A stretch of 64,000 nt of DNA from Gloeothece verrucosa PCC 7822 (GTDB lineage Bacteria > Cyanobacteriota > Cyanobacteriia > Cyanobacteriales > Microcystaceae): contig NC_014501.1 of assembly GCF_000147335.1 (NCBI RefSeq), positions 3,160,300 to 3,224,299 on the forward strand. The letters are read 5' to 3'. The notes beneath the pieces are model-generated. The model was given only the letters and a program-made list of their open reading frames with translations, was not told where the DNA came from and did not search any database. A program made the translations under genes and the position numbers. Shown here piece by piece: positions 27,405 through 62,150 of the stretch; position 1 is the stretch's first letter; each line of letters begins with the position of its first letter.

Positions 27405-29381
27405 ATGACTATGAACTTTCAAGAAGTCATCGCATTACTTGATCGAGTCGTATTAAATCAGGAAGGAAGACATCTAAGTTCTCCAGAAATAATTATTTTG
27501 CGAGGAACTTGGGAGGGTATCACATACGATCAGATGGCAGAAAGTTCTCCATACAGCCTAAACTATCTAATGCGTGATATCGGTCCGCGTTTGTGGAGAC
27601 TACTATCAGGAGTGTTAGGAGAAGAAATTGGTAAAACTAACTTTAGAGGAGTTTTAGAGAGACGAACACTCTCGGAAAAATATTATTTGTCTTCTCCTTG
27701 GGAAATGTCCCAATTAAATCTTCAAACCTCAGAAATCGAGTCACCCCTGCATCAAAACACAAGCCATAACCTGACCCTTATTCAAGAACAACCCGACACA
27801 TTAATTAGTTCCTTAAATCTCCATTTAGAGTGGGGTCGCCAACTGGTTCCCGACTGGGAAGCAATTCCTGATCTATCGGAATTTTATGGCCGTAGTGTTG
27901 AATTAACTACCTTAAAACAATGGATTTTAAACGATAATTGTCGCATCGTGGCATTACAAGGCATTTGTGGCATAGGAAAAACGGCTCTGGCCGGTAAGCT
28001 AGTTCAAGAGATTGGTCAAGAGTTTGATCAGATCATCTGGCGTTCCCTAAGATCGGCTCCTCCTATAAAGATCTTATTGGACAACTGGCTTAACACGCTT
28101 TCTCCTGGGTTAAATTGCGACAATCACTGTTCTTTGTCCAACATCATCAAACTATTACGAGAAAAACGCTGTTTGCTGGTTCTCGATGGAATAGAGACAA
28201 TTTTACAAACCGGTGAATTGGTGGGTAAATATCGAGAAAGCTATCAAGATTATGCAGATTTATTTAAAAGCATCGCCGAGCAATCTCATCAAAGTTGTTT
28301 GTTAGTTACAGGGGTAGAAATTCCCAAAGAAATTATTCTAAAAACCGGTGCTGTCTCTTCAGTTCGTTCTCTTGTTTTATGGGGATTAGAAAAACCCCAT
28401 GCTTATGCTTTATTGCAATCTGATGCGCTGAAAGATGCCGAGAGTTGGTCAATCTTAATCGAGAATTATCATGGTCATCCAGAAGCCTTAAGAATTGTTG
28501 CAAAACTGATTGGGGAAGTCTTTAACGGGAATGTTCATGAATTTTTATCCCAAGAATGTCAGGTTTTAAGTGATATCAATAAGCTCTTAGATCCTTTGAT
28601 AAACAGATTATCTGAAAGGGAAAAAGAGGTTTTATACGGGTTAGCCATTGAACCAGAAGCCCTGTCATTTTTAAATTTAATCAATCGGCTTAAATACCCA
28701 ATATGTGAAGCGGAAATACTCGAAGTAATGGTGTCTTTAAAAGAACGATCTCTAATAGAAATCAGCGAGTTTGACGGCAACTCATTATTTAAAATCAATG
28801 GTTTTATCCAAGAGTTAATGATTGAAAAACTGATCGAACAACTGAGCAGTAAAAGCCGAAAAAAATCGCGCAAAAACTACCCCATATCTGTATCAGAAGA
28901 GATTATTGATTTAAGCCCAAATCATCCCAAAGCGGTTAAATTAAGTCAATGGTTTGAGCAAAACTTTGAACAGGGCTGGCAATCTTTAGATATATTGCTG
29001 AGACCTGCTAAACATTGCTTATCTAAATTGCGGAGCTTTTATTATCTCAGGAGTGACAATATTATTAAGCGATTTAAAACCCTTAATGTAGGTACTCCTA
29101 AGCATCCTGAATTATTAGCTTTATTGGTGGCTATTACCGAAGAAACTAATGGTAAAATCGGCTGTCAAGTGCAGGTGTTGCCCATAGTCCCAGAAACCCT
29201 ATTACCAGAATCTTTGAAAATTCGCTTAATTAATGGAAATGGCGAAATTTTACGGGAATTAGCTTGTAAACAAAAGGAAACTTTGCTGGTCTTACCTTAC
29301 TTCCGAGGAGAACCCGAAGACCAATTTAGTCTTCAAATCATCAATCAAAACATCAGTCTTACTGAAAATTTTCGGATTTGA
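27405..29381 (+). CDS. NB-ARC STAND ATPase with N-terminal HTH and C-terminal DUF1822-like domain
   Basis: 658 aa. The N-terminal about 85 residues (FQEVIALLDRVVLNQEGRHL, GTWEGITYDQMAESSPYSLN) match the vWA-MoxR-associated HTH-like domain that often precedes NB-ARC in cyanobacteria. NB-ARC follows: P-loop GICGIGKTALAGKL (about 186-199), kinase-2 CLLVLDGIE (about 256-264), then ARC helices to about 480. Instead of the usual WD40/TPR sensor repeats, the C-terminus (about 500-658, ending FSLQIINQNISLTENFRI) resembles DUF1822. STAND proteins are signal-triggered oligomerising switches, some in phage defence. No effector or partner gene is adjacent. A second ATG two codons in is an alternative start. 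Confidence 0.8.
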   Translation: MTMNFQEVIALLDRVVLNQEGRHLSSPEIIILRGTWEGITYDQMAESSPYSLNYLMRDIGPRLWRLLSGVLGEEIGKTNFRGVLERRTLSEKYYLSSPWEMSQLNLQTSEIESPLHQNTSHNLTLIQEQPDTLISSLNLHLEWGRQLVPDWEAIPDLSEFYGRSVELTTLKQWILNDNCRIVALQGICGIGKTALAGKLVQEIGQEFDQIIWRSLRSAPPIKILLDNWLNTLSPGLNCDNHCSLSNIIKLLREKRCLLVLDGIETILQTGELVGKYRESYQDYADLFKSIAEQSHQSCLLVTGVEIPKEIILKTGAVSSVRSLVLWGLEKPHAYALLQSDALKDAESWSILIENYHGHPEALRIVAKLIGEVFNGNVHEFLSQECQVLSDINKLLDPLINRLSEREKEVLYGLAIEPEALSFLNLINRLKYPICEAEILEVMVSLKERSLIEISEFDGNSLFKINGFIQELMIEKLIEQLSSKSRKKSRKNYPISVSEEIIDLSPNHPKAVKLSQWFEQNFEQGWQSLDILLRPAKHCLSKLRSFYYLRSDNIIKRFKTLNVGTPKHPELLALLVAITEETNGKIGCQVQVLPIVPETLLPESLKIRLINGNGEILRELACKQKETLLVLPYFRGEPEDQFSLQIINQNISLTENFRI

Positions 29382-39603: not shown

Positions 39604-40947
39604 TCAAAGAACACAACAACAATTGCGGCCACGCTCTTTAGCTTGATATAAAGCTTTATCGGCTGTATTGATTAAAGTTTTGGAAGAACTCTCGAGACTC
39701 GGGATCGTGGTAGAGATGCCTAAGCTGACTGTCACATATGGATTAGCGCCCGATACACCATGAGGAATTTTTCGCTTGGCTACCGCTAGACGGATATCTT
39801 CAGCCACTTTTTGCGCTCCTTCAAGATTAGTATTAGATAGTACAATCGCAAATTCTTCGCCTCCATAACGTGCCACTAAATCGGCTGAACGTTTGACGAT
39901 TGTTTCCATAACTTTTGCTACTCTTTTTAAACATTTATCTCCGGCTAAATGCCCATAGCAATCGTTATAAAGTTTAAAATGATCGACATCACATAATATT
40001 AATGATATAGGAATTTTTTCTCGAATGGAGCGTCGCCATTCATATTGTAAATATTGATCAAATTTGCGACGGTTTGCTAATTGAGTTAGTTGGTCAGTGG
40101 TGGCGAGTTTTTCTAATTTTTGTTTAGCTTTTTCTAAGTCTCGCGTTCTTTCAGCTACTTTTTGTTCTAGGGTATAAGAATATTCTTTAAGTTTATCGTA
40201 ATATTGAGCTACTTGAATAGCCGCCGCCGTTTGAGCAGTTAGAGCCGTCAAAAGTTTTAAATCTTCGGCGCTATAGTTGATGGGTTTTGAGTGAGTAATA
40301 TTAACCACTCCAATGGTTTTATTTTGTATGGTTAAAGGCAGACAAATCAAAGAACAAATCCTTTGATTTCCTTCTCCATCTGCAATATTTTCCCAAACAT
40401 CATTAAGAATTTCTGCTTTGCCTGTCTTCAGTACATGACTAATGATAAGGGAGTTAGATAATTTTTGATTTGAGGGGTAATGAGAATCGGCTACGATTTT
40501 TAATCGACCGTTTTTGTGATTGATTAACATTAACCAAATTTGCTCAGCTTCTACTAAATTTTTTACTTCATTGATTACTAAACTTCCCAGTTCTTCAATG
40601 GATAAGCAGGTAGAAATTTTAGCAGATAAATCATATAAAAAATTAATTTCTTCATATTTATCTAAGGTTTCAATGGCTAGTAATTTTTTTTCTAACTCTT
40701 GATAAGCTATATAACTTAAACTTTCTGCAATAATAGCGGCTTTTTCATCTCCTTCTACCCAACCAATAACCTCGAGTCCAGCTTGAATCGGATGTCTTTT
40801 TGAGGAGAGAAAGCCACCATCTCCCATGATTATTTTTTCTTCTTTATCTAGAATATTAATAGAAATATGCAAGCCATTTATCCAGTTTTCTAACATCAAT
40901 AATAAGTCTGGCTTTGCTAATATTTTTTTTAGGCTTAATTTCACCAT
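39604..40947 (-). CDS. GAF-GGDEF diguanylate cyclase
   Basis: 447 aa. An N-terminal domain (1-95) that is not recognised, a GAF domain at about 105-250, a coiled coil at about 255-285 and a GGDEF domain at about 288-447. The active site is GGEEF (362-366), allowed for active cyclases. The product-inhibition I-site R-x-x-D is present (R353, D356) exactly five residues before it. It should make cyclic di-GMP. It is the last gene of a three-gene minus-strand operon: its start is three bases after the response-regulator stop, so translational coupling is likely. Confidence 0.93.
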   Translation of the reverse strand: MVKLSLKKILAKPDLLLMLENWINGLHISINILDKEEKIIMGDGGFLSSKRHPIQAGLEVIGWVEGDEKAAIIAESLSYIAYQELEKKLLAIETLDKYEEINFLYDLSAKISTCLSIEELGSLVINEVKNLVEAEQIWLMLINHKNGRLKIVADSHYPSNQKLSNSLIISHVLKTGKAEILNDVWENIADGEGNQRICSLICLPLTIQNKTIGVVNITHSKPINYSAEDLKLLTALTAQTAAAIQVAQYYDKLKEYSYTLEQKVAERTRDLEKAKQKLEKLATTDQLTQLANRRKFDQYLQYEWRRSIREKIPISLILCDVDHFKLYNDCYGHLAGDKCLKRVAKVMETIVKRSADLVARYGGEEFAIVLSNTNLEGAQKVAEDIRLAVAKRKIPHGVSGANPYVTVSLGISTTIPSLESSSKTLINTADKALYQAKERGRNCCCVL

Positions 40948-40950
40948 TCT

Positions 40951-41337
40951 CTATATTTCTATTTCAAGAATTTCCATTGCTTTTATCAGAATTTCTTTCG
41001 GTTTAAAAGGTTTTGTCATATATAAGTCTGCTCCCACCGCCATGCCAGTTTTTTTCTCAAATTCCTGTCCTTTGGCTGTTAGCATAATAATATAAACATT
41101 GTTAATTTCAGGATTAGTTTTAACAAATTGACACACTTCTAAACCACTCATTTTAGGCATCATTACATCTAAAAAAACTAAATTGGGTTTTTCCTCTTGG
41201 ATAATTTCTAAAGCTTTTTTTCCGTCATTTGCCGTTAATAATTCTACTTGATAATCATCCTCCAGTTTTTCCAAAACCTGCTCCATCAAAATTAAAATAT
41301 TTGGCTCATCATCAACGATTAAAATTTTTTTATTCAT
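40951..41337 (-). CDS. single-domain response regulator
   Basis: 128 aa, receiver domain only. Acid pocket D9-D10, phospho-acceptor D57 in LVFLDVMMPKMSG, T87 in IIMLTAKG and K109 in YMTKPFKP are all in place. No output domain, so it works by protein contact, most simply by passing the signal from the upstream histidine kinase to the downstream diguanylate cyclase. It is 20 bases after the kinase gene. Confidence 0.95.
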   Translation of the reverse strand: MNKKILIVDDEPNILILMEQVLEKLEDDYQVELLTANDGKKALEIIQEEKPNLVFLDVMMPKMSGLEVCQFVKTNPEINNVYIIMLTAKGQEFEKKTGMAVGADLYMTKPFKPKEILIKAMEILEIEI

Positions 41338-41357
41338 TTATTTCTCCAAATGACTAA

Positions 41358-44300
41358 TTAACCTTCGTTACTTTTTTCAAGCGGCTCATGTTCCTGCCCA
41401 GAGAGGGGTAGACTAAAAAAGAAGGTACTCCCTTGATGAGGGGCGCTGATTACCCAAATTTTTCCGCCATGATACTCTACTATTTGTTTACAAATCGGCA
41501 AACCTAAGCCGGTTCCTGTGGGTTTATCGGTGAGAATATTTCCGCCTTGTTGAAAGCGTTCAAAAATTTTACTCTGCTCATTTTCGGCGATTCCTATTCC
41601 TGTGTCAGTAATGCTGATCACTAATTGATCATCTTCTAATTTAGCGCAACAGGTAACCGATCCTTCATCAGTAAATTTCACAGCATTGGACAAAAGATTA
41701 ATCACTACCTGGATCATCCGATTTTTATCAACCCAAATATTGGGTAAATTTAAGGGAAAGTCTTTAATTAAGTCGATTTTTTTCTTGTCAAAGAGAGGAT
41801 AGGTTGCGGCGCTCGCTGTTTCTAAAATCTCCACAACAGAAGTAGACTTAATATTCCATTCCATTCGTCCTGCTTCCATTTTAGCAATATCTAAGACATC
41901 ATTAATCAAAGCCGTAAGTCGTTCGGCTTCGGAGATAATAATCTTAATATTTTGTCCAACCTTTTTTCTCGCTTTTTTAACTCTCGTCTCATCGCTGCTA
42001 ATGGCCGGAAAAATCACTTCTTCTAACTTTTCTTGAATTAAAGAAGTAAACCCTAACACTGAAGTGAGGGGAGTCCGCAGTTCATGAGAAACTGTCGCCA
42101 AAAATTCCGTTTTCATCCGATCAACTTCTCGCTCACTGGTCACATCTCGGATTAAAATTACTGAACCGAGACATGGCTCTTCTTCATCCCCAAAATTTTC
42201 TTGAAAAATACTGCTGACTAAAGCTTGTCCTGAGCGACCACTTCCTAATTCTACCTCAGCAGTTACGATTTCTTTTTGTTGTCGTCCTATTTTTCTAACT
42301 AAGTTGGCCAAGTCTAGAGATAATACTTCAGATAGATGCTTGCCTTTGAGATTGTCTGTTAAATTAAACATAGAGAGCAAAGCGGGATTAAAACGAGTAA
42401 TAAAACCGTGAATATCGGTTACTAATAAGCCATCCGCTAAATTGTCCACAATGGCGTTCAAGTCAGCTAAGGTAGTCTGTAAAATATTCGATTGTTGCTG
42501 AGTTTGCTCGAGCAGTTGAGCTTGATAAACGCCTACTCCTAACTGATTACCGGCTTGAGTGAGTAAGTTAATTTCTCGCTGTTCCCAATGACGGGCTTGA
42601 GAATTTTGATAAGCGCCTAACAATCCCCATAATTGCTCCCCAACAAAAACGGGAACAACGACAAAAGCTTTGACTTGAAAATGTTCTAAAATTTCTACAT
42701 GGCAGTCTGTTAATCCGGCTTGGTGGATATCATCAATGGCGAAAATTTCATGATAGCGATAGCGTCCTCCTTTATTTTCTTGTAAAAAGGTATCTTCCCA
42801 AACTGTTTTTACGCCTTTTTTCCAGGTTAAAGACTTCCAACCGGGGGCTACAGATTCATACATAAACTCACCACTCCAGTCGCCATAAAAACGATAGACG
42901 ACGACGCGATCACATTTGAGAATTTCTCGGACTTCTTGAGTGGTGGTGCGAAAAATTGTTTCGAGATCGAGGGTTTGCCGAATTCGTTCTATGACTCGTG
43001 CTAAAGCCTTTTCTTGAGCCGCCACTTGAGCTAAATGTTCTTTTTGTGCCTGCACTTGAGCTAAAGCAATTTGCAGTTCGCTGGAACGTTTTTCACTTTG
43101 GGCTAATAAGTCTGCCTGTTGCAACGCCACGCCTAAATTAACAGCAATTTTGCTGACAAATTGTTTATCTAAATCATTCCACTGACGAGAAACACTACAC
43201 TGATGAATACACAATAATCCCCACAATTCTTGTCCTTTGAGCAGAGGAGCCACTAAATTAGCTTTAATCTGAAAGCGACTTAAAATTTGGCGATGACAAT
43301 CTAATATTTCCGCTTTGTCGATATCTTCAAGGGAAAATATTCGACCCTGTTGATAATAAGTGGCATATTGTTTGCCAAAACAGCTATCTTCAACTTTCGC
43401 CTCCATAGCGGAATCAAAATCGGGCAAAACGTCTTCTGAGACGAATGTCCCTTGGGTATAACTACTTTTAATATCAAACTTAAAAATAGCGACTCGATCC
43501 GCTTGCAACAGTTGACGAACTTCGGTAGCCGTAGTCTGAAAAATCGTCTTTAAATCGAGGGTAAGACGAATTTTTTCAATCACTTGAAATAGGGCTTTTT
43601 CTTGTTCGGCAATGCGAGCTTGTAACTCTTTCTGAGCGCGAACTTCGGCGAGTGCGACTTGTAGTTGTTCTGAGCGTTGGTTGGCTCGCTCTAGCAATTC
43701 TGCCTGTTGTAGGGCTACTCCTAAATGGATCGCAATTTTTCGAGAAAATTCTATCTCCGCATCTTGCCATTGACGAGCGCCGCGACATTGATGAATACAC
43801 AACAGCCCCCAGAGTTGTTCTCCTTTAAGCAAGGGAATAATTAAATTCGCTCGAATTTCAAAGCGTGCCAACAGTTCTAGATGACAAGATTGTAATTGAC
43901 TTTGATAAATATCAGCAATAGCCAGAATTTTTCCCTGCTGATATTGGTTGGCATAAACTTCTCCAAAGCAGTGATCAGAGATTTTAACAGCTAATGCGGA
44001 TTCAAATTCACTTTTAACATCTTCTGAGATAAATTTTCCCTCTATATATTCAGTCTCTCGGTTAAATTGAAAAACGGCTACCCGATCCGCTTGTAAGAGT
44101 TGCCGCACTTCTACAGCCGCCGTTTGAAAAATTGTATTAATATCTAAGGTACGACGTATTTTATCAATGACTTGAGATAAAGCTCTTTCTTGTTCGGCTA
44201 CCGTTGCCTGTTGTTCTTTTTGAAACTGAACTTGTGCTAATGCCTGTTGTAATTCACTAGAACGTTTTTCAGCTTGAACTAATAATTGAGTCTGTTGAAT

Positions 44301-46625
44301 CGCTACTCCTAAATTAGCGGCTATTTTGCTGACAAACTCGATCTCCGATTCTTTCCATTCCCGAAAATCAACACATTGATGAATACACAAAAACCCCCAC
44401 AATTGATCGCCTTTTAATAGGGGAGCAATTAAATTAGCCTTGATCTGAAATCTGGCCAACAGCGCAATATGACATTCTGAAAATCCCGCCTCATAAATAT
44501 TAGCTACGGCTCCGATTTTTCCTTGTTGATAGTCCCTAGCATAATTTTCGGCAAAACAACTATCTTTAATTTTCGCTGATAAGACTGATTCAAACGAGGA
44601 TGAAACATCTTCGCAGATGAATTTTCCGGTTGTATGATTAGAGTCTGGTTCAAATTGAAAAACGGCTACCCGATCCACTTTGAGCAGTTGACGCACTTCT
44701 GTGACTGTTGTTTGAAAAATTATTTCTAAATCTAAGGTACGCCGAATTTTATCAATGACTTGAGATAAGGCTTTCTGTTGTTCTACAGCATTGGCTTGTT
44801 GTTCCACAGATATTTGAATTTGTTTTAAATAGTCTGTCTGTTGTAACCCGACTTCGAGTTGTGTGGCTAATTTTTGCAGTAAATTGATTTCATCGGCAGT
44901 CCACTCTCTGTAAGCACTGTTTTGAAAAACAGTTAATACTCCCCAAAGGGTTTCTCGTTGCACAAGGGGAACAAACACGGCTGATTTAATGCCTATGTTA
45001 TTTAAGCTAATCAGAAAAGGTTGCTCAATTTTTTTTGGATCGATAATTTTATCCAAAATGTAGGGCTTAAATTGCTCTAAATTTGCCCCAAAAGCCGCTT
45101 TCAACTCTTCATCTTTCCATTGATATTTTAATAAAGAAGAAAAATTGAGGGGATTAGATTCACAAATAAAATGACCCGCTCCCTCAGTTCCAAATTTATA
45201 AATACAGACCTGTTCTGCTGCTAGGAGTTTTTGAATTTCTAGGGCGGCTGTTTGAAATATTGTATTAATGTCTAGGGTGCGACGAATTTTATCAATCACT
45301 AGAGATAAAGAACGTTCTCTTCGGGCTTCTTTAGTGAACTCTTGCGCCCTTTTTTCCAGTTCAAGGGTTAATGCGGTTTGCAGTTCGTCTTGACGTTGCT
45401 GTGTTTTGGCTAATAATTCTGCTTGTTGCAGTGCAACTCCCAAATGAACGCCCACTTGAGTTAAGAAATTAATTTCATTTTTTGACCATTGGCGGGGTGC
45501 TGAATTTTGGTAAGCCGCTAATAATCCCCAGAGTTTTTCTCCTTCATAAATAGCGACAATGATGTAGGCTCTAACTTGATAGTGTTCTAGAATATTGATA
45601 TAACATTGAGAAAATTTCTGTTCATAAATATCATCACAAACTTTATAGAGATTTTGTTTACTAAATATTTTTCCCTCAGTCTCTTCTAGATAAGTATCTG
45701 TGATTTGAGGATTTTTTAATTCTCTGACGCTACATCGACTGATGTTTTGCTTAATTTCAGGGATTGATAGTTGTTGTTCAATTAAACAATTCCAGGGATG
45801 GGTTACTGATTCTATAATAAACTGACCACTCCAATCAGGATTAAAACGATAGATGGCTACCCGATCAGCTTGTAATAGTTGGCGAACTTCTGCTGTACTT
45901 GTTTTGAAAATGCTATTGAGGTCTAGTGAACGCCGAATTTTATCAATAATAGCCGCTACCGCTTGTTCCCTTTTGATTATTTGTTCAATGGTGGTGGCTA
46001 GAATATCTGTTTGTTGTTCTTGTTGAACTAATAGTTGAGCTTGCTGTATGGCGATGCTTAAATGAACGGCGATCTGATCAGCAAATTCTATTTCTTGTTT
46101 ACTCCAGCGACGCGGATGACTACATTGATCAATCAGTAATAAGCCCCATAATTCTTTTCCTTGGTGCAAAGGAACAGCTAAGGAGGCTTTAATGTTTAGA
46201 GCTTCTAAGATGCAATCAGAACATTCTCGGTTCGAGGTTTTGTCAAAGTCATCTACCGTCCAAATTTTCCCTTGTTGAGAGTAAACCTTACAGTGGTGTT
46301 CAAAACATTTATTATCGATCTTTATTTCCTGCATGGATTGATAGGGAATTAGCACTGATTCGGCGACATATTTTCCCTCGCTGCCATTGGATTGCGATTC
46401 AAACCGATAAATTCCCACTCTATCACTCTCTAGAAGTTGACGAACTTCTGTCACGGTAGAGTTAAAAATACTGTCTAGGTCTAGAGATTCTCGAATTTTT
46501 GTCACAACCCCTAATAAAGCTTTTTGTTGAGCGACCTGTTTACTCAACAAATCTTTTTGAATTTTTTCTGGTCTTGGTGCTTTTTTTCCCTGGCTAGATT
46601 GAGTTTCTGGCATTGAGTTGTTCAA
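41358..46625 (-). CDS. multi-GAF histidine kinase with three DXCF-type cyanobacteriochrome domains
   Basis: 1755 aa, soluble. Seven GAF domains (about 46-200, 227-405, 446-600, 626-785, 822-982, 1018-1178, 1214-1375) joined by Gln/Glu-rich coiled coils, then PAS (about 1388-1500), HisKA with H1514 in TVSHELRTPL, and HATPase (about 1625-1742: NLLSNAVKFTDEG, TGTGLGLPICK). GAF4, 5 and 6 carry a DXCF motif and a Cys-His bilin motif: D688-C690-F691 with C718-H719; D884-C886-F887 with C914-H915; D1080-C1082-F1083 with C1110-H1111. Cys-Cys spacing is 28 each time, as in TePixJ (C494/C522). GAF7 has only C1308-H1309; GAF2 has C341-Tyr; GAF1 has N-K-C-F and C138-Ile; GAF3 has none. Likely a multi-photopigment light sensor controlling the response regulator and cyclase behind it. 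Confidence 0.92.
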   Translation of the reverse strand: MNNSMPETQSSQGKKAPRPEKIQKDLLSKQVAQQKALLGVVTKIRESLDLDSIFNSTVTEVRQLLESDRVGIYRFESQSNGSEGKYVAESVLIPYQSMQEIKIDNKCFEHHCKVYSQQGKIWTVDDFDKTSNRECSDCILEALNIKASLAVPLHQGKELWGLLLIDQCSHPRRWSKQEIEFADQIAVHLSIAIQQAQLLVQQEQQTDILATTIEQIIKREQAVAAIIDKIRRSLDLNSIFKTSTAEVRQLLQADRVAIYRFNPDWSGQFIIESVTHPWNCLIEQQLSIPEIKQNISRCSVRELKNPQITDTYLEETEGKIFSKQNLYKVCDDIYEQKFSQCYINILEHYQVRAYIIVAIYEGEKLWGLLAAYQNSAPRQWSKNEINFLTQVGVHLGVALQQAELLAKTQQRQDELQTALTLELEKRAQEFTKEARRERSLSLVIDKIRRTLDINTIFQTAALEIQKLLAAEQVCIYKFGTEGAGHFICESNPLNFSSLLKYQWKDEELKAAFGANLEQFKPYILDKIIDPKKIEQPFLISLNNIGIKSAVFVPLVQRETLWGVLTVFQNSAYREWTADEINLLQKLATQLEVGLQQTDYLKQIQISVEQQANAVEQQKALSQVIDKIRRTLDLEIIFQTTVTEVRQLLKVDRVAVFQFEPDSNHTTGKFICEDVSSSFESVLSAKIKDSCFAENYARDYQQGKIGAVANIYEAGFSECHIALLARFQIKANLIAPLLKGDQLWGFLCIHQCVDFREWKESEIEFVSKIAANLGVAIQQTQLLVQAEKRSSELQQALAQVQFQKEQQATVAEQERALSQVIDKIRRTLDINTIFQTAAVEVRQLLQADRVAVFQFNRETEYIEGKFISEDVKSEFESALAVKISDHCFGEVYANQYQQGKILAIADIYQSQLQSCHLELLARFEIRANLIIPLLKGEQLWGLLCIHQCRGARQWQDAEIEFSRKIAIHLGVALQQAELLERANQRSEQLQVALAEVRAQKELQARIAEQEKALFQVIEKIRLTLDLKTIFQTTATEVRQLLQADRVAIFKFDIKSSYTQGTFVSEDVLPDFDSAMEAKVEDSCFGKQYATYYQQGRIFSLEDIDKAEILDCHRQILSRFQIKANLVAPLLKGQELWGLLCIHQCSVSRQWNDLDKQFVSKIAVNLGVALQQADLLAQSEKRSSELQIALAQVQAQKEHLAQVAAQEKALARVIERIRQTLDLETIFRTTTQEVREILKCDRVVVYRFYGDWSGEFMYESVAPGWKSLTWKKGVKTVWEDTFLQENKGGRYRYHEIFAIDDIHQAGLTDCHVEILEHFQVKAFVVVPVFVGEQLWGLLGAYQNSQARHWEQREINLLTQAGNQLGVGVYQAQLLEQTQQQSNILQTTLADLNAIVDNLADGLLVTDIHGFITRFNPALLSMFNLTDNLKGKHLSEVLSLDLANLVRKIGRQQKEIVTAEVELGSGRSGQALVSSIFQENFGDEEEPCLGSVILIRDVTSEREVDRMKTEFLATVSHELRTPLTSVLGFTSLIQEKLEEVIFPAISSDETRVKKARKKVGQNIKIIISEAERLTALINDVLDIAKMEAGRMEWNIKSTSVVEILETASAATYPLFDKKKIDLIKDFPLNLPNIWVDKNRMIQVVINLLSNAVKFTDEGSVTCCAKLEDDQLVISITDTGIGIAENEQSKIFERFQQGGNILTDKPTGTGLGLPICKQIVEYHGGKIWVISAPHQGSTFFFSLPLSGQEHEPLEKSNEG

Positions 46626-52959: not shown

Positions 52960-54090
52960 CTACTGATTCACCTCAACTAAACGAGATGTTGTAAAGCGAT
53001 TCATCCATTTTTCTAAATAGATTCTATTGGCTTTTTTCTGTTCAGGGTCTGTACTATCTAAAGGATAGGGGGCTAATCCTTTTATCGCCGCAGTTGTCAC
53101 ACAAAACATAGACTTTTGAAAGCTTTCACATATTTGCACTAACAAATCATCTTCTTGTCGAAAACTTTTGCGATAAATATCATGCAAATATTCAGGAAGG
53201 AAATGTCGCATATCTTGCATTAAAAGGGTTGGGGGAATACCAGCACCTCCTACCGGTAAAGGATCTGCATATAATGCCCCATAGGTAAACATCGCCTGAT
53301 CATAGGGAATTTGATAAGCTTGAGCATTATAAGAAACCGTCCCCAAAAAGGGCGTACCTCGAAAGAAAACCGCCTCAACATACGGTACAGCAGTATCCAT
53401 TAAAAAGGTTAAACCCACAGATTTAGGAATGATTTCATAAATCTGATTTTTAATTTTTACCTGATAAGTAATGGGACGATTAGCATCGGCAACCAACCCA
53501 TCTAAGATATGCTGCACAACTTGGGGAATTGTCTTAATTTCTCCTCGGTCATAACGGTCAGATAAACTGAGAAAAATATCCGCCATCACTCGCCAAAATT
53601 GCCCTAGTCCACTGTAATAAGCCGACTGTCTTACCTGTTCTGGTAAAAAGTTAGGGAAAGCTTTATGTAACCCCAACATCAAAATATTGCCTTTTAACTT
53701 AGCTTGAATCGCCTTTTCTACTAAGTGGTCAAATTCAGGAGAATCCAAATAATTATCTAACCCTCCTCCCCCATGCCAAAACATCGTTTTCATGCAATAT
53801 TCCGCATACTCAAAATTAATGCGGTCATGCCACCAATGTTTCAGCAATTGTTGAAAGGAAATTTTGCCATTAAAATATTTAAAAAAGGGAAACAAAACTA
53901 AAAATTGATTGTCTGCAATGTAAATTAAATTCCGAGAGTAGGCATCTAAAACCACACCGTAACTTTTGAGAATACCCACCACCTCGGTGACATTCTCAGG
54001 AGAATCTTTCAAGAGTGCCTCTCCTTTTTCTAAGCGGTAAATGAACGCCGCTAAAGAATGTTTAGATTGATCGATTTTTGTGCTTACCAT
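52960..54090 (-). CDS. cupB: CO2 hydration protein (ChpX/CupB type)
   Basis: 376 aa. Subunit of the specialised thylakoid NDH-1 complexes that hydrate CO2 to bicarbonate, acting as the carbonic-anhydrase-like part with a zinc site. Conserved stretches: VLFPFFKYFNGKISFQQLLK (about 69-88), HWWHDRINFEYAEYCMKTMF, FWHGGGGLDNYLDSPEF, and ADPLPVGGAGIPPTLLMQDM (about 283-302). Length near 376 fits CupB/ChpX (constitutive, NDH-1MS'); CupA/ChpY is longer, about 440 aa. The choice of paralogue rests on length and is not certain. Operon: ndhF, ndhD, then this gene. Confidence 0.85.
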   Translation of the reverse strand: MVSTKIDQSKHSLAAFIYRLEKGEALLKDSPENVTEVVGILKSYGVVLDAYSRNLIYIADNQFLVLFPFFKYFNGKISFQQLLKHWWHDRINFEYAEYCMKTMFWHGGGGLDNYLDSPEFDHLVEKAIQAKLKGNILMLGLHKAFPNFLPEQVRQSAYYSGLGQFWRVMADIFLSLSDRYDRGEIKTIPQVVQHILDGLVADANRPITYQVKIKNQIYEIIPKSVGLTFLMDTAVPYVEAVFFRGTPFLGTVSYNAQAYQIPYDQAMFTYGALYADPLPVGGAGIPPTLLMQDMRHFLPEYLHDIYRKSFRQEDDLLVQICESFQKSMFCVTTAAIKGLAPYPLDSTDPEQKKANRIYLEKWMNRFTTSRLVEVNQ

Positions 54091-54103
54091 AATTTTAATT
54101 GCT

Positions 54104-54270
54104 ATTGGTCATTAGTTATTAGTCATTGGTGATTGGTTATTGGTCATTAGTCACCGAGTTATTAGCGAATAGTTTTATGTTATTTATTATCAGTTTTCGA
54201 TGGTTTGTTATTTGAGTAAAGTTTACTACTCACTAAGAACTAAGGACTAAAGACCAATAACTAATGACTC
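54104..54270. repeat. heptamer (STRR-like) repeat clusters between ndhD and cupB
   Basis: Two clusters, 54104-54165 (TTAGTTATTAGTCATTGGTG and similar) and 54237-54270 (ACTAAAGACCAATAACTAAT). The second overlaps the ndhD 3' end: the final SH codons and TAG stop of NdhD lie inside it. Confidence 0.75.
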
Positions 54271-55745
54271 ACTAAAGCTATCTCATCATTGCCGGTGAGT
54301 AACATCGCCGCACTCGGTTCACTCCAACGAACCATCCAATTGGGTTGTATTCCTAAAAGGATAATTAATATTGCCAAAACCATAGCCGGAGTTCGTTCAG
54401 ACCACAAAACCCGAGGTAATTTCGATAATTCAGCCGTCAGACGACCAAAAAAGACGCGGTTAACCATTAACAAGAAATAAACAGCCGTTAATCCACTCCC
54501 AATTAAACAGAATAAAGTTTGTAGGGGAAATATAGGAAAGCTTCCTCGGAAAACCAGAAATTCAGCAATAAATCCGATCATTCCCGGAATTCCGGCACTA
54601 GCCATCACCCCTAAAATCATTAAAGTACCTGTAACGGGTAACCCTCTTTCTGGGTTTAACAAACCCTGTAAATAATTGACATCGCGGCTACCTGTTTTCT
54701 TGTACACTACCCCCACCAACAAAAACAACATCGCAGAAATTAAGCCATGACTAATCATTTGATAAATTGCTGCCAGAATACTCAAGCGGGTAGATGCGGC
54801 AGCCGCCAATAAAATATAGGCCATGTGAGCAATGGAAGAATAGGCCACCACCTTCTTCATATCCTTTTGAGCAATAGCACAGGAAGCCCCATACAAAGCA
54901 CTAATGGCGGCTAATGTGGCCATCCAGGGAGCAATCGCTACCCAACCTTCTAAGAATAAGCCTATTCCAAAGCGTAATAAGCCATAAGTTCCCAATTTCA
55001 ACAAAACACCCGCTAATAAGACCGAAATTGGAGTAGAAGCCTCTACGTGAGCATCCGGCAACCAAGTATGAAAAGGAAAGATAGGAATTTTAATTCCCAA
55101 CCCAATCAACAGAGGAATTAACAGTATAATTTGAGTTTCAACCGGTAAAGTATGAGAACGCAAAGGTTCATAATCAAAACTTGAAGCGCCGCTCAACCAC
55201 ACCAAGCCTAAAAAAGATACTAAAACGAGAATGCCTGAAAGGGCAGTATACAGCAAAAATTTCATTGCCGCATAACCGCGTCGTTGTCCTCCCCAAATAG
55301 CGATTAAAAAATATAAAGGAATAATTTCCAGTTCATAAAACAGGAAAAACAGTAACAAATCCTGAGCTAAAAATGCCCCTGATACCCCACCATTGAGGAT
55401 CAACAATAAAGCATAATAAAAACGAGGTCGCTCAAGGGATTGACTGCTGCTATAAATAGCGATCAAGGTCAACAGACTATTAATAAACAGCAGAGGAAAA
55501 GATAGACCATCAATTCCTAGATGATAGTTCAAGCCTAAACTACTAATCCAGGGGATATTTTCTGAAAATTGCGATTGTAGGTTGGTTGGGTCAAATTGAA
55601 ATCCCAAGATGATATTTAGCAATAAAATCCCACCAGCAATCACTAAAGTGATTAAACGAGTTTGACTTCCATCGACTTTCATCGGTAAAAAGGCAATGGC
55701 AATCGCTGCTAAGAAAGGAACCCAGACAAAAGCACTGAGCATCAT
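54261..55745 (-). CDS. ndhD4: NDH-1 subunit NdhD, CO2-uptake type
   Basis: 494 aa, about 14 helices, the antiporter-like (NuoM/Mrp) proton-pumping subunit. Motifs: LGIDGLSFPLLFINSLLTLI (about 76-95), the Glu helix LFFLFYELEIIPLYFLIAIW (about 131-150), GIKIPIFPFHTWLPDAHVEA (about 217-236, with the lysine helix), and KKVVAYSSIAHMAYILLAAA. The D3/D4 forms serve CO2 uptake, not respiration; context with a cupB-type gene suggests D4. Its last codons and stop lie in a repeat. Preceded by ndhF with 222 bases of repeat-bearing spacer. Confidence 0.9.
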   Translation of the reverse strand: MMLSAFVWVPFLAAIAIAFLPMKVDGSQTRLITLVIAGGILLLNIILGFQFDPTNLQSQFSENIPWISSLGLNYHLGIDGLSFPLLFINSLLTLIAIYSSSQSLERPRFYYALLLILNGGVSGAFLAQDLLLFFLFYELEIIPLYFLIAIWGGQRRGYAAMKFLLYTALSGILVLVSFLGLVWLSGASSFDYEPLRSHTLPVETQIILLIPLLIGLGIKIPIFPFHTWLPDAHVEASTPISVLLAGVLLKLGTYGLLRFGIGLFLEGWVAIAPWMATLAAISALYGASCAIAQKDMKKVVAYSSIAHMAYILLAAAASTRLSILAAIYQMISHGLISAMLFLLVGVVYKKTGSRDVNYLQGLLNPERGLPVTGTLMILGVMASAGIPGMIGFIAEFLVFRGSFPIFPLQTLFCLIGSGLTAVYFLLMVNRVFFGRLTAELSKLPRVLWSERTPAMVLAILIILLGIQPNWMVRWSEPSAAMLLTGNDEIALVSH

Positions 55746-55778
55746 TAAATTTTTAGCTCCTTACATAAATTAAATGAA

Positions 55779-55960
55779 TTATTAGTCATTAGTCATTAGT
55801 TATTAGTCATTAGTCATTAGTCAGAGCTTGAAAAACCGTTATTATTTCTCCTTGATAACTCATGATTGATAATAGTTAATGGGGATATTTTTTGGCATTA
55901 ACTCCCTTGACAGACCCTCGAATTGCTAAAGACTATTGACTAACGACTAATGACTAATGA
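55779..55960. repeat. heptamer (STRR-like) repeat clusters between ndhF and ndhD
   Basis: Clusters at 55779-55826 (perfect runs of TTAGTCA) and 55926-55960 (ACTAATGACTAATGACG, opposite orientation). The two opposed copies could pair in RNA or DNA to form a long hairpin in the operon spacer. Confidence 0.75.
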
Positions 55961-55967
55961 CGATAAA

Positions 55968-57866
55968 TTATTGACCGATTAATGATGACCAATAATTAGT
56001 TACAATTGACCACTGACCATTAAGGGCAAACCAAATTAGAAAACCCACACCAAAAATAATGGTGAGAAGATAAAACTGGGATTGACCAGAAACATTATAT
56101 TTAAGAGCATTGCCACTAAAAATGGTGGCTAAACTGATCAAATTTACCAGCCCATCAATAATATAGCGATCAAACCAAGAAGCCAATTTAGATAGACTGG
56201 CCACTACCGCAACCACCGTGTATTGATAGATTTTGTCTAGATAAAAATCGTAGGCAAATAAGTCCTGTAAAAATCTTAAAGAAAGTAAGGTTGGTCTTGC
56301 CCAGGCCCGTCGTAATCCTACCGTTGCCCCTATAATACAACCCAATAACCCAGAAACGATTAAAAGGGGAACTGCCCATTGAATCACCAGACTATTATTA
56401 TCCAATAAAGGAGCAGTGGGACTCAGCCACAAGGGCCATTTAATCGGTGCGATGGGAATAATTAAAGTCACAATGATCAAACTGACCATCGGAAAAGCCA
56501 TCGGCCAAGGAACTTCCGGCGTTCTACGGGTTTTACTTTGATGTTGTCCCAGAAATACTAAACGGAACACCCGAGTTAAATTTAAGGCACTGAGGAAATT
56601 AACAAAGATCACAATAGCCAGTAACCACCAGTCTACTGCCCAAGAACCATTAAACCAACGCTGAAAAGTCCAAAACATACCCATCGGCATTAAAGCAATT
56701 AATCCAGCAGAACCCACCACAAAGGAGGTGGTAGTCGCTGGCATTCTTGACCATAATCCGCCCATTTCGGTAATATTTTGGTTACTGGTGGTGGTAATAA
56801 TTGCGCCCGCACTCATGAATAAGAGAGCTTTAGCGATAGCATGACTAAACAGTAATAGAAAAGCGATATCAACGTGTCCTAATCCAACCGCAATAAAGAC
56901 TAATCCTAAATAGGCACTGGTGGAATGAGATAAAGTCCGTTTAATATCAATTTGAGCCAAGGCCATCAGAGAAGTGCCAATCACCGTTACACTCCCCAGA
57001 ATAATTAACGCATCAGAAGAGACCGGAGAGAGGCTAAAAACTGGCTGTAATTTAATCAGAACATAAGCCCCGGCAGAAACCACAATGGAGTTTCGCATAA
57101 TCCCCGCAGGGTTGGGGCCTTCCATCGCCTCATCCAACCACAGATTAAGAGGGAATTGGGCACATTTACCCGTCGGACCTGCAATCAGGGATAATCCTAA
57201 TAAGGCTGAGGTCAAAGGAGGCAAAGGAAAGGTTCCTGCCCAAGATTCTAACTGAGAAAAAGTTAATCCGGCTCCATAACTCGATAAAGCCACTAACCCC
57301 ATCAGGAGAATAATATCTCCAACCCGCTTAGTTAAGAAAGCATCTCTAGCCGCCGTTACCACTAAAGGTTGAGCATACCAGAATCCAACTAACAAATAAG
57401 TTGATAGGGTTAGAATTTCTAGGAGTCCATAACTCAGTAATAAAGAATCACTCAGCGCAATTCCCCCTAGTGCCGCTTCAAAGACTCCCATTAGTCCGTA
57501 GAATCTAGCTAAAGACCAGTCTTTTTCCATGTATCCTAGGGCATAAAGTTGGGCCAGTAAACTAATCCCCGTGATTAAAGCGAGTCCCCCTAGTGAGACC
57601 GGCGAAAGTTCGATGGATAAATATAAGTCTAGATCAGCCACTGTGACCCAATGAAACACCTGTTGTTGAGTTTGTCGTTGCCAAATCGCACTAAAAGCAA
57701 TCGAACCATGAATCAGACTGATGACAGTCATCAACAAATTAATGTAAGCGGCTGGTCTAGGTCCTGTTCGTCGAATAATCCCTAAAGCCCAAGGAAGACT
57801 CAATAATGAGCCAAATAAGCCGTAGAATGGAATAATCCAACAGCTTTGTAGAAAAAAAGCACTCAT
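55968..57866 (-). CDS. ndhF4: NDH-1 subunit NdhF, CO2-uptake type
   Basis: 632 aa, 15-16 helices, NuoL-like proton-pumping subunit and probable partner of the CO2 hydration protein. Motifs: GLMGVFEAALGGIALSDSLL (about 124-143), TAARDAFLTKRVGDIILLMG, PLNLWLDEAMEGPNPAGIMR (about 238-257; here the usual H-x-W-L-P-D-A is changed to L-x-L-W-L-D-E-A), and IDIKRTLSHSTSAYLGLVFI (about 308-327). The altered WLDEA motif is typical of the F3/F4 branch. Shorter than the respiratory NdhF. First gene of the operon, 803 bp from the divergent ccm operon. Confidence 0.9.
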   Translation of the reverse strand: MSAFFLQSCWIIPFYGLFGSLLSLPWALGIIRRTGPRPAAYINLLMTVISLIHGSIAFSAIWQRQTQQQVFHWVTVADLDLYLSIELSPVSLGGLALITGISLLAQLYALGYMEKDWSLARFYGLMGVFEAALGGIALSDSLLLSYGLLEILTLSTYLLVGFWYAQPLVVTAARDAFLTKRVGDIILLMGLVALSSYGAGLTFSQLESWAGTFPLPPLTSALLGLSLIAGPTGKCAQFPLNLWLDEAMEGPNPAGIMRNSIVVSAGAYVLIKLQPVFSLSPVSSDALIILGSVTVIGTSLMALAQIDIKRTLSHSTSAYLGLVFIAVGLGHVDIAFLLLFSHAIAKALLFMSAGAIITTTSNQNITEMGGLWSRMPATTTSFVVGSAGLIALMPMGMFWTFQRWFNGSWAVDWWLLAIVIFVNFLSALNLTRVFRLVFLGQHQSKTRRTPEVPWPMAFPMVSLIIVTLIIPIAPIKWPLWLSPTAPLLDNNSLVIQWAVPLLIVSGLLGCIIGATVGLRRAWARPTLLSLRFLQDLFAYDFYLDKIYQYTVVAVVASLSKLASWFDRYIIDGLVNLISLATIFSGNALKYNVSGQSQFYLLTIIFGVGFLIWFALNGQWSIVTNYWSSLIGQ

Positions 57867-59800: not shown

Positions 59801-60109
59801 ATGCAAATTGCCAAAGTTCGAGGCACAGTTGTTAGCACCCACAAATCCCGCAGTCTCACAGGGGTAAAATTTTTACTCGTTCAGTATATTAATGCTGAAG
59901 GAGAATTAATGCCCAAATATGAGGTAGCCGGCGATACAGTCGGAGCGGGGGTCAATGAATGGGTGCTAGTTTCTAGAGGTGGAGCCGCCCGTGTAGAAAG
60001 CGGCCAAGGCGAAAAACCCCTAGATGCTATGGTCGTGGGGATTATAGATACTATCAACGTTGATAATCGTTTGCTATATAGCAAAAAAGACGAATATCGA
60101 CCTAATTAG
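59801..60109 (+). CDS. ccmL: carboxysome shell pentamer protein CcmL
   Basis: 102 aa. EutN/CcmL-type pentamer that closes the icosahedral vertices. Begins [20 protein letters not shown], contains [10 protein letters not shown], then [20 protein letters not shown] and [20 protein letters not shown], all diagnostic. Second-last part [19 protein letters not shown] is standard. No separate promoter seen. ccmM starts 28 bases later. Confidence 0.97.
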
Positions 60110-60137
60110 CCAGAAAAATACAGGAGGGTTAAAGAAA

Positions 60138-62150
60138 ATGGCAGTCCGCACCATAGCGGCTCCTCCGACTCCCTGGTCAAAAAACTTAGCCGAACCGCAA
60201 ATTGATGAGAGTGCTTATGTACATTCTTTTTCAAACCTCATTGGCGACGTTAAAGTTGGCCCAAATGTCCTGATCGCCCCAGGAACTTCGATCCGTGCAG
60301 ATGAAGGAACACCCTTCTACATCGGAGAAAGTACCAATATTCAAGATGGGGTGGTCATTCATGGGTTAGAAAAAGGTCGGGTAGTCGGGGATGATAGCAA
60401 AGAATATTCGGTCTGGATCGGGAAACAGAGTTGTATTACCCATCTGGCCCTGATTCATGGACCAGCTTATATCGGGGATGAATGCTTCATCGGCTTTCGC
60501 TCAACCGTATTTAACGCTCGAGTCGGACGAGGCTGCATTATTATGATGCACGCCTTAATTCAAGATGTAGAAATCCCGCCCGGAAAATATGTTCCTTCAG
60601 GAGCAATTATTACCAACCAACAACAGGCAGACCGTCTTCCCGATGTGAACGAGAGCGATCGCGCTTTTGCCAATCATGTCGTAGAAATCAATGAAGCTTT
60701 AAGGGCCGGCTATCGATGTGCCGAGGATTTAGCCTGTATTAATCCCATTCGAGAAAATCTCAACGAAGTTACAGAAGGCATTAAAGAGACTAACTATAAA
60801 AATTCGGTGGAAACTATGAGTGTAAATCCAGACATTAGATCTCAAGTCCGTTCTCTGCTGTCTCAAGGCTGTATCATTGGAGCCGAACACGCAGATCAGC
60901 GTCGTTTTAAAACCAAATCTTGGCTCAGTTGCGGACAAATTAACTCAAATCGAGAAGACCAAGTGCTACGAGAAATCGACGCTTGGTTACAAGAATATCA
61001 AGGGGAATACGTCCGTTTAATTGGAGTTGATGCTCATGCTAAACGGCGGGTTAGTGAAACCATTATTCAACGCCCCAGCGACACCCCCGTTCAAGCTGCC
61101 CCCAGTGCGGCTCGAGCAACGGTGAGCTACAGTAAACCCGCTTCTAACAGTCAGAGTGATATTGGCACAGAGCTAGTCGGTCAAATACGCTCAATCCTCA
61201 AACAAGGCTATAAAATCGGCACAGAATTTGCCAATGAGCGCCGTTTTCGCACTAAATCTTGGATCACGGGTCCCGCGATTGAAACCCAAAAAGACACTGT
61301 AGCACTACAAGAAATCGAATCCGTTCTCGCTGATCACAGAGGAGAATATGTTCGTCTGATCGCCGTTGATCCGACAGGAAAACGCCGCATTATGGAAACC
61401 ATTATCCAACGCCCAGACGGAGATACAACAGTTCACACCAATGGCAATGGAAACGGTAATGGAAAAGCGAAAACCGCTCCTTCAAGCAACGGAAGACAAG
61501 CGAGTGCAACCGTTAGCAGTGGCGGCTTAACGCCTGAAGTCATTGCCCAAGTGCGCTCCCTGCTCGCCCAAGGCTTAACCATCGGCACAGAACACGCTGA
61601 TCAACGTCGCTTTAAAACTAAATCTTGGCACACCTGTAGCCCCATTGATAGCCGCAACGAATCACAAGTTTTAGCGGCTCTCCAAGATTGTTTGAATGAA
61701 CATGAAGGAGAATATGTCCGTTTATTAGGAATTGATGCCCAGGCTAAACGGCGGGTAGTAGAAACCATCATTCAACGTCCGGGGGATAAAACCCAAAATG
61801 CGACAAAACCCGCCGCCACTCAAAGCACTTACTCTCCCTATTCTTCCACAGCCAGTCAGCCCAGTAGTGCGGCTAAATCGAGCAATAGCAGCCTAAGTTC
61901 TGACATTATTAGCCAAGTGCGCTCGATTATCTCCCAAGGTTTAACCATTGGCACAGAACACGCTGATAAGCGTCGCTTTAAGACCAAATCTTGGCAATCT
62001 TGCAGCCCCATTGACAGCAACCGAGAATCAGAAGTCTTAGCTGCCTTAGAAGCTTGTTTACAAGAACATGAAGGAGAATATGTCCGTTTATTAGGGATTG
62101 ATGCCCAAGCCAAACGGCGAGTCATAGAAACTATTATTCAACGCCCCTAG
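60138..62150 (+). CDS. ccmM: carboxysome scaffold protein CcmM (gamma-CA domain plus four SSU-like modules)
   Basis: 670 aa from ATG 60138 (AGGAGG at 60122-60127). The N-terminal gamma-carbonic-anhydrase beta-helix (1-200) keeps all three zinc His (H75 in VVIHGL, H102 and H107 in THLALIHG) and the redox pair C194/C200 ([11 protein letters not shown]), so it is probably an active, oxidation-switched enzyme. Four Rubisco small-subunit-like modules follow (about 230-310, 352-432, 470-550, 588-670), each with IGxExAxxRRFxTKSW and ending ETIIQRP, which pack Rubisco. Linkers are Ser/Asn/Gly-rich. Module 2 is the most divergent and lacks the Cys of the others. An internal ATG at 60816 (Met227) would yield the short CcmM35-type form. 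Confidence 0.97.
60816..62150 (+). CDS. ccmM: internal start: short CcmM (M35-type) product
   Basis: Beta-cyanobacteria make a short CcmM from an internal start between the carbonic-anhydrase domain and the first SSU-like module. Here Met227 ([11 protein letters not shown]) is exactly at that place, with GGTGGA 5-10 bases upstream. The product would be 444 residues with four modules. Internal initiation is known for the family; this site is inferred. Confidence 0.6.

Follow-up and report, generated by a model that had tools for sequence, protein, structure and literature searches.

What kind of receptor is encoded by a gene of Gloeothece verrucosa PCC 7822 that sets three DXCF-type cyanobacteriochrome domains side by side ahead of a histidine kinase, and does such an array amount to a new way of sensing light? 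Here we analysed a 64,000-nucleotide stretch of DNA (the window) from this strain, the genome of which comprises 7.84 Mb in seven contigs with a chromosome of 6,091,620 bp. The gene is a minus-strand open reading frame (41358..46625) of 1,755 codons, with TTG as the listed start codon and an ATG four codons further in. Pfam assigns to its 1,755-residue product seven GAF domains, a PAS domain (aa 1388-1491; 42153..42464), a HisKA dimerisation/phosphoacceptor domain (41868..42116, with SHELRTPL from aa 1513) and a HATPase_c catalytic domain (41400..41729), all on the minus strand, and the H, N, G1 and G2 boxes of the kinase are all intact. Our answer is that the protein, though large, is an ordinary representative of an established receptor family and not a new kind of sensor, and that a kinase with three adjacent DXCF domains, though rare, introduces no new principle. 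We consider it quite probable that this is an enlarged, multi-input Slr1393-type cyanobacteriochrome sensor histidine kinase, likely feeding c-di-GMP. An NCBIfam identification as the phosphodiesterase Tlr1612 (358 bits against a cut-off of 1600) was rejected, as only GAF sequence is held in common. The main text of a paper on the diurnal transcriptome of PCC 7822 mentions neither GAF, phytochrome nor kinase; a far-red form from the strain, Cyan7822_4053g2, is tabulated in PMC5578081.

Homologs were gathered by protein searches of related genomes and a scan of named genomes, and the extended loci were cut into domains. In relatives of the same family, the same PAS-kinase is preceded by three to five GAFs, and four of these relatives (L026, L027, L029 and L030) keep the same domain order with 60-68% identity from the last GAFs to the histidine kinase. 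The last GAF of L064 (genus g12) is almost identical to slr1393g3 and is its sister at 100/100, which identifies the kinase group as Slr1393 orthologs, and here too the red/green GAF is the last sensor ahead of the PAS-histidine kinase. A red/green photocycle and a light-regulated kinase, as expected of the Slr1393 group, are predicted. A maximum-likelihood tree of 64 domains yielded four classes, each on one side of a branch: DXCF (GAF1 and GAF4-6; 28 rows) with support of 98/99, insert-Cys with 99/89, red/green, including GAF7 and slr1393g3, with 82/94, and an XRG group, including GAF3 and the far-red JSC1_58120g3, with 100/99. The fullest common order in the relatives is DXCF, insert-Cys, XRG, DXCF, red/green, of which the second DXCF is tripled here. 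A recent triplication of GAF4-6 was considered and set aside; the three join their counterparts from the orthologs in an unresolved polytomy, and grouping them as a clade of their own is weakly rejected (p-AU 0.04), making an older duplication or retention likelier. A second, hybrid version of the kinase in the same genome (L054) has four GAFs, namely a DXCF domain with C-Y, an insert-Cys, a DXCF and a red/green domain; a receiver also lies inside the kinase in this paralog and in the orthologs L033/L065 (G024) and L063 (G029). Domain classes and orthology are established by sequence, as are the neighbour conservation and linker lengths described below.

The three DXCF domains are GAF4 (aa 618-792; 44250..44774, minus strand), with D-S-C690-F and C718-H, GAF5 (aa 814-988; 43662..44186, minus strand), with D-H-C886-F and C914-H, and GAF6 (aa 1010-1184; 43074..43598, minus strand), with D-S-C1082-F and C1110-H. 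A preliminary description of this DNA had placed them at 43092-44750, which covers GAF4-6 (43074-44774 as domains), and had given the distance from DxCF to Cys-His as exactly 28 residues, as is true of all three pairs (690/718, 886/914 and 1082/1110); the assignment as DXCF cyanobacteriochrome domains is upheld by sequence, tree and predicted fold. Chance is excluded, with a DNA pattern for DxCF, 26 residues and CH matching 11 times in the genome versus twice for a reversed-pattern control, and the domains show whole-length homology to cyanobacteriochromes in the PDB (E 1e-26 to 1e-63). The alignment to TePixJ that had been proposed as a check on the pocket came out in favour of this assignment, with D492, C494, F495, Y503, C522, H523 and N535 identical in GAF4-6; Q526 differs, its equivalents in GAF4, GAF5 and GAF6 being Leu, Leu and Ile, while those of position 533 are Lys, Arg and Lys and those of position 515 Tyr, Tyr and Asp. 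A model of GAF5 from a 15-row alignment reached a pLDDT of 90.2 and matched the bilin-binding GAF structures of JSC1_58120g3 (Z 25.9), AnPixJ (24.3) and Slr1393g3 (23.6), as well as TePixJ 4fof (Z 23.9, 2.7 A, 162 residues aligned). GAF5 thus has the GAF fold of the phytochrome superfamily by its model, and GAF4 and GAF6 by their identity to it; in the alignment of the seven GAFs, GAF4-6 are mutually 57-63% identical. A covalent bilin with a reversible second linkage is predicted for each. Bilin supply is to be expected, since the genome encodes three ferredoxin-dependent bilin reductases and two heme oxygenases. Two of the reductase genes, probably pebA/pebB, lie next to each other (G000:C1:4453678-4455204) and the third lies elsewhere, so that the strain may produce phycoerythrobilin besides phycocyanobilin.

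The blue/green colours first suggested for GAF4-6, by analogy with TePixJ, are not supported. TePixJ groups with the PixJ of this genome (100/99), and GAF4-6 lie not in that clade but in the one of 28 rows (98/99); beta2 and helix 4 each contribute one position for trapping the D-ring in the red/green and the teal-DXCF photocycle (PMC5240096, PMC5578081), and this pair is Phe/Phe in GAF4-6 and Val/Leu in TePixJ. We prefer blue/teal to blue/green as a guess because both trapping Phe are present and the clade lies apart from TePixJ, although the teal rule comes second-hand via PMC5240096 and PMC5578081 and concerns two residues only, and it counts against teal that characterised teal-DXCF domains are described near the red/green lineage, unlike the clade of GAF4-6 (PMC5240096). 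The separate clade and the Phe/Phe pair also weigh against a rival reading, in which GAF4-6 would be TePixJ-like blue/green sensors that differ in colour or dark reversion; their response would then be spectrally graded or, as the preliminary description had suggested, stepped or logic-like. This reading draws on the TePixJ spacing of DXCF and Cys-His, on the degree of divergence among the three domains and on the 36 positions, including Tyr/Tyr/Asp at 515, at which they differ mutually within the TePixJ 480-540 block. We nevertheless regard it as unlikely: GAF4-6 are nearly alike at the listed chromophore-contact positions, so that their sequences give no call for three different colours. GAF6, with Asp at the DIY position, may be tuned differently from GAF4 and GAF5.

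GAF7 (aa 1206-1382; 42480..43010, minus strand) is a red/green (XRG) domain by tree, residues and PDB match: it has W-E-D-T-F-L in agreement with WxDxxL, C1308-H and the Phe/Phe trapping pair, falls in a clade with slr1393g3 and scores 216 bits against NpR6012g4. The preliminary description had correctly read it as keeping only the Cys-His, Cys1308 being present and a second Cys absent (D-T-F-L), and had allowed for perhaps a fourth, different pigment in the protein. A further pigment domain is indeed likely in GAF7, but the statement fell short, having overlooked the dual-Cys GAF2 (Cys298 and Cys341). By alignment, tree and the class definition of PMC5240096, GAF2 (aa 221-415; 45381..45965, minus strand) belongs to the insert-Cys cyanobacteriochromes, which hold CXXR/K within an insertion loop, with DTYL in UG1 (PMC5240096). 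Its 22-residue insert stands directly ahead of the Asp motif and holds C298-S-V-R, followed by a red/green-like Asp motif without Cys (D-T-Y-L) and the canonical Cys (C341-Y). The insert Cys is found in all seven domains of the GAF2 lineage and CXXR/K in six of the seven (GAF2 and five of its six relatives). A near-UV/green photocycle is our best guess for GAF2 because its tuning positions, beta2 Phe and helix-4 Tyr, match those of UG1 (F684, Y777). A model of GAF2 shows this GAF fold as well, but its insert is unreliable (residues 69-105 under 50), so that it is silent on the location of Cys298. A third cysteine of GAF2, Cys330 (45636-45638), lies in a C-D/N-D/N-I-Y motif that is invariant in the 7/7 insert-Cys domains of the family.

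Two further domains have lost parts of the pocket. GAF3 (aa 438-614; 44784..45314, minus strand), assigned to the XRG lineage by alignment and tree, has lost the chromophore Cys and is presumably a blind structural module. GAF1 (aa 35-209; 45999..46523, minus strand) belongs by alignment and tree to the DXCF lineage in degraded form; its N-K-C107-F had been recognised at the outset, whereas its second site, present as C135-S, had been missed. Equivalents of TePixJ Asp492, Tyr503, His523 and Asn535 are missing from GAF1, and bilin binding is doubtful there. Both of its bilin cysteines, Cys107 and Cys135, persist 28 residues apart though the pocket Asp, Tyr, His and Asn are gone. Overall, bilin is probably bound by five of the seven GAFs (the insert-Cys GAF2, the DXCF domains GAF4-6 and the red/green GAF7), and the light-sensing domains probably represent three pigment classes.

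Such decay opens the way to a second rival, in which GAF7 alone would drive the kinase by red and green light and GAF4-6 would be residual, or would bind bilin without signalling, as expected from slr1393-like proteins in which only g3 is intact. The GAF next to the PAS-histidine kinase is intact in every same-family ortholog and is the one nearest to Slr1393g3, and upstream domains often decay (GAF3 here, G008_g1, G011_g2-3 and G019_g1-2). However, GAF4-6 have all three kept their pockets despite the decay of GAF1 and GAF3 beside them, most orthologs retain DXCF domains and the linkers are in register, and we think it rather improbable that the three DXCF domains have no part in signalling. 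That GAF4-6 are mere spacers without bilin, a notion prompted by the degraded pockets of two of the seven domains (GAF1 and GAF3), is very improbable, given that all defining residues are kept in them, with the equivalents of Tyr503, His523 and both Cys invariant, and that the fold is modelled at high confidence.

How such domains might act together is suggested by the linkers, the length of which was counted between two landmarks, the Trp ahead of the final helix and the Asp opening the first strand of the next domain. Among the GAF-GAF pairs of these kinases and of PixJ arrays, 110 of 130 have linkers of 69, 76, 83 or 90 residues; after dereplication 31 of 37 do so, all of them 6 modulo 7, where about 5 would be expected, although the independent events are fewer than counted because related linkers inherit their length by descent. 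Heptad linkers between tandem sensor modules, GAF arrays included, have already been described (PMC6798134). The exceptions 80, 87 and 91 equal 69 plus 11, 18 and 22 and fit 11-residue steps, a regularity noticed post hoc, while linkers of 82 and 70 fit neither series. The linkers flanking GAF2-type domains (80 and 91) are off the heptad rule, so not all domains need couple alike. Those between GAF4 and GAF5, GAF5 and GAF6, and GAF6 and GAF7 are each 90 residues long, and this identity, in heptad register, favours in-phase coupling of GAF4-6 that would be additive or OR-like, with redundant blue sensors and not three colours. For comparison, the passage of PMC8584932 that cites Shin et al. 2019 has the PPHK kinase integrating two inputs as a logic OR.

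We infer bilin binding, colours, coupling sign and output of the array, and propose a scheme as follows. In GAF4-6, ring A of the bilin would be attached to the canonical Cys and the DXCF Cys added to C10 in the dark state, giving blue absorption, and light would isomerise C15=C16 and free the bond between the DXCF Cys and C10. GAF7 would switch between red and green, and GAF2 from near-UV or violet to green or orange, with C10 linked to the insert Cys in the dark. Each GAF would push on a common parallel helical spine and then, via the PAS domain, on the kinase; the pushes of GAF4-6 would add or act as an OR, and the blue channel would thereby be sensitive or graded. The kinase would phosphorylate the adjoining receiver, and the output would probably reach the adjoining GAF-GGDEF enzyme and set c-di-GMP. 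As a tentative extension that we hold to be unlikely, the three in-register DXCF modules, distinct outside the pocket and switching independently on one spine, might count photon dose and give a graded blue kinase output, which, together with near-UV insert-Cys and red/green channels, would act on one c-di-GMP enzyme via the receiver.

The genes downstream are consistent with this output. A receiver-only response regulator of 128 residues with the phospho-acceptor Asp57 (40951..41337, minus strand) lies 20 bp downstream of the kinase, and 3 bp after it lies a 447-residue GAF-GGDEF diguanylate cyclase with a GGEEF active site and an RxxD I-site (39604..40947, minus strand). Nine relatives have the regulator beside the kinase and eight have the cyclase next in line, while L064, the relative nearest to Slr1393, has no recognisable response regulator or GGDEF neighbour in the stretch examined. 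Kinase, regulator and cyclase form a conserved trio (window 39604-41358; L056-L065) and a candidate light-to-c-di-GMP pathway. The kinase most likely serves to control c-di-GMP by light of several colours, and gene order alone suggests the step from receiver to cyclase. Elsewhere in the window, a gene for a CcmM-like protein with four stretches matching the RuBisCO small subunit (60060-62150) makes up a carbon-concentration region with ChpXY and NDH-1 genes (52960-57866), and an NB-ARC/NACHT ATPase fused to DUF1822 is encoded at 27405-29381.

The array had also been called unusual, and this stands for a kinase but not for tandem domains in general, as PixJ-type chemoreceptors hold two to six tandem DXCF domains and PtxD has seven GAFs (PMC5812497). 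The DNA pattern for DxCF, 26 residues and CH occurs in 244 of 291 cyanobacterial genomes. Using tandem patterns of fixed spacing (172 or 196 residues), which miss other pitches, we found two DXCF in tandem at a 172-residue pitch in 34 of 390 genomes (~9%), mostly in PixJ-type chemoreceptors, and runs at this pitch reach six domains in G049, five in G068 and three in each of G311, G362, G400 and G272. At the 196-residue pitch of the present kinase, three consecutive DXCF domains, seen as two adjacent pairs, occur only here among the 390 genomes. The run in G049 (C1:1139176-1141767), with six tandem TePixJ-like DXCF domains at a 172-residue pitch in a 2.8-Mb genome, outruns the GAF4-6 array.

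If the proposed scheme is correct, the family would offer a natural modular test bed for the summing of several light sensors within one protein, and same-family relatives whose DXCF modules number one, two or three, with matched linkers and a closely related kinase, already exist. It would also provide a multicolour kinase tied to c-di-GMP through a small receiver, in contrast to SesA/B/C, where synthesis or breakdown of c-di-GMP is the work of the photoreceptors themselves (PMC5871770).

Among known systems the closest is Slr1393 of Synechocystis PCC 6803 (slr1393; PDB 5DFX, 5M82 and 5M85), likewise a histidine kinase with a C-terminal red/green GAF, in the clade of which GAF7 falls. L062 and L064 (genus g12) are orthologs of the present kinase by domain order and alignment; L064, close to Slr1393, has three GAFs, of which g3 alone is intact, whereas the present kinase has seven, including DXCF and insert-Cys domains, with response regulator and GAF-GGDEF neighbours. 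PtxD of Nostoc punctiforme (NpF2164) is a single receptor that likewise joins seven GAFs from several classes of cyanobacteriochrome, of which at least six bind bilin and two have a second Cys (PMC5812497), but it is a phototaxis chemoreceptor with MCP output, whereas the kinase has three consecutive DXCF domains and ends in HisKA and HATPase_c without the C-terminal MCP signalling domain of PtxD and PixJ. The MCP arrays of TePixJ and PixJ type share with it the DXCF motif, the Cys-His at 28 residues and tandem DXCF domains within one protein, and differ in output, in their 172-residue pitch, in their separate clade and, for TePixJ, in the Val/Leu trapping positions. GAF2 resembles the insert-Cys types (UG1 Mbr3854g4, UG2, VO1 and UB1) in its CXXR loop and D-T-Y-L, and UG1 in its beta2 Phe and helix-4 Tyr (PMC5240096), but it differs from them in sitting in a multi-class kinase and in having Tyr after the canonical Cys. 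Finally, the dual-sensor histidine kinase PPHK (PDB 6OAP), the best phmmer match for GAF5, also combines a cyanobacteriochrome GAF with a kinase, yet it differs in domain count and has D-Q-Y-F in place of a motif with the DXCF Cys.
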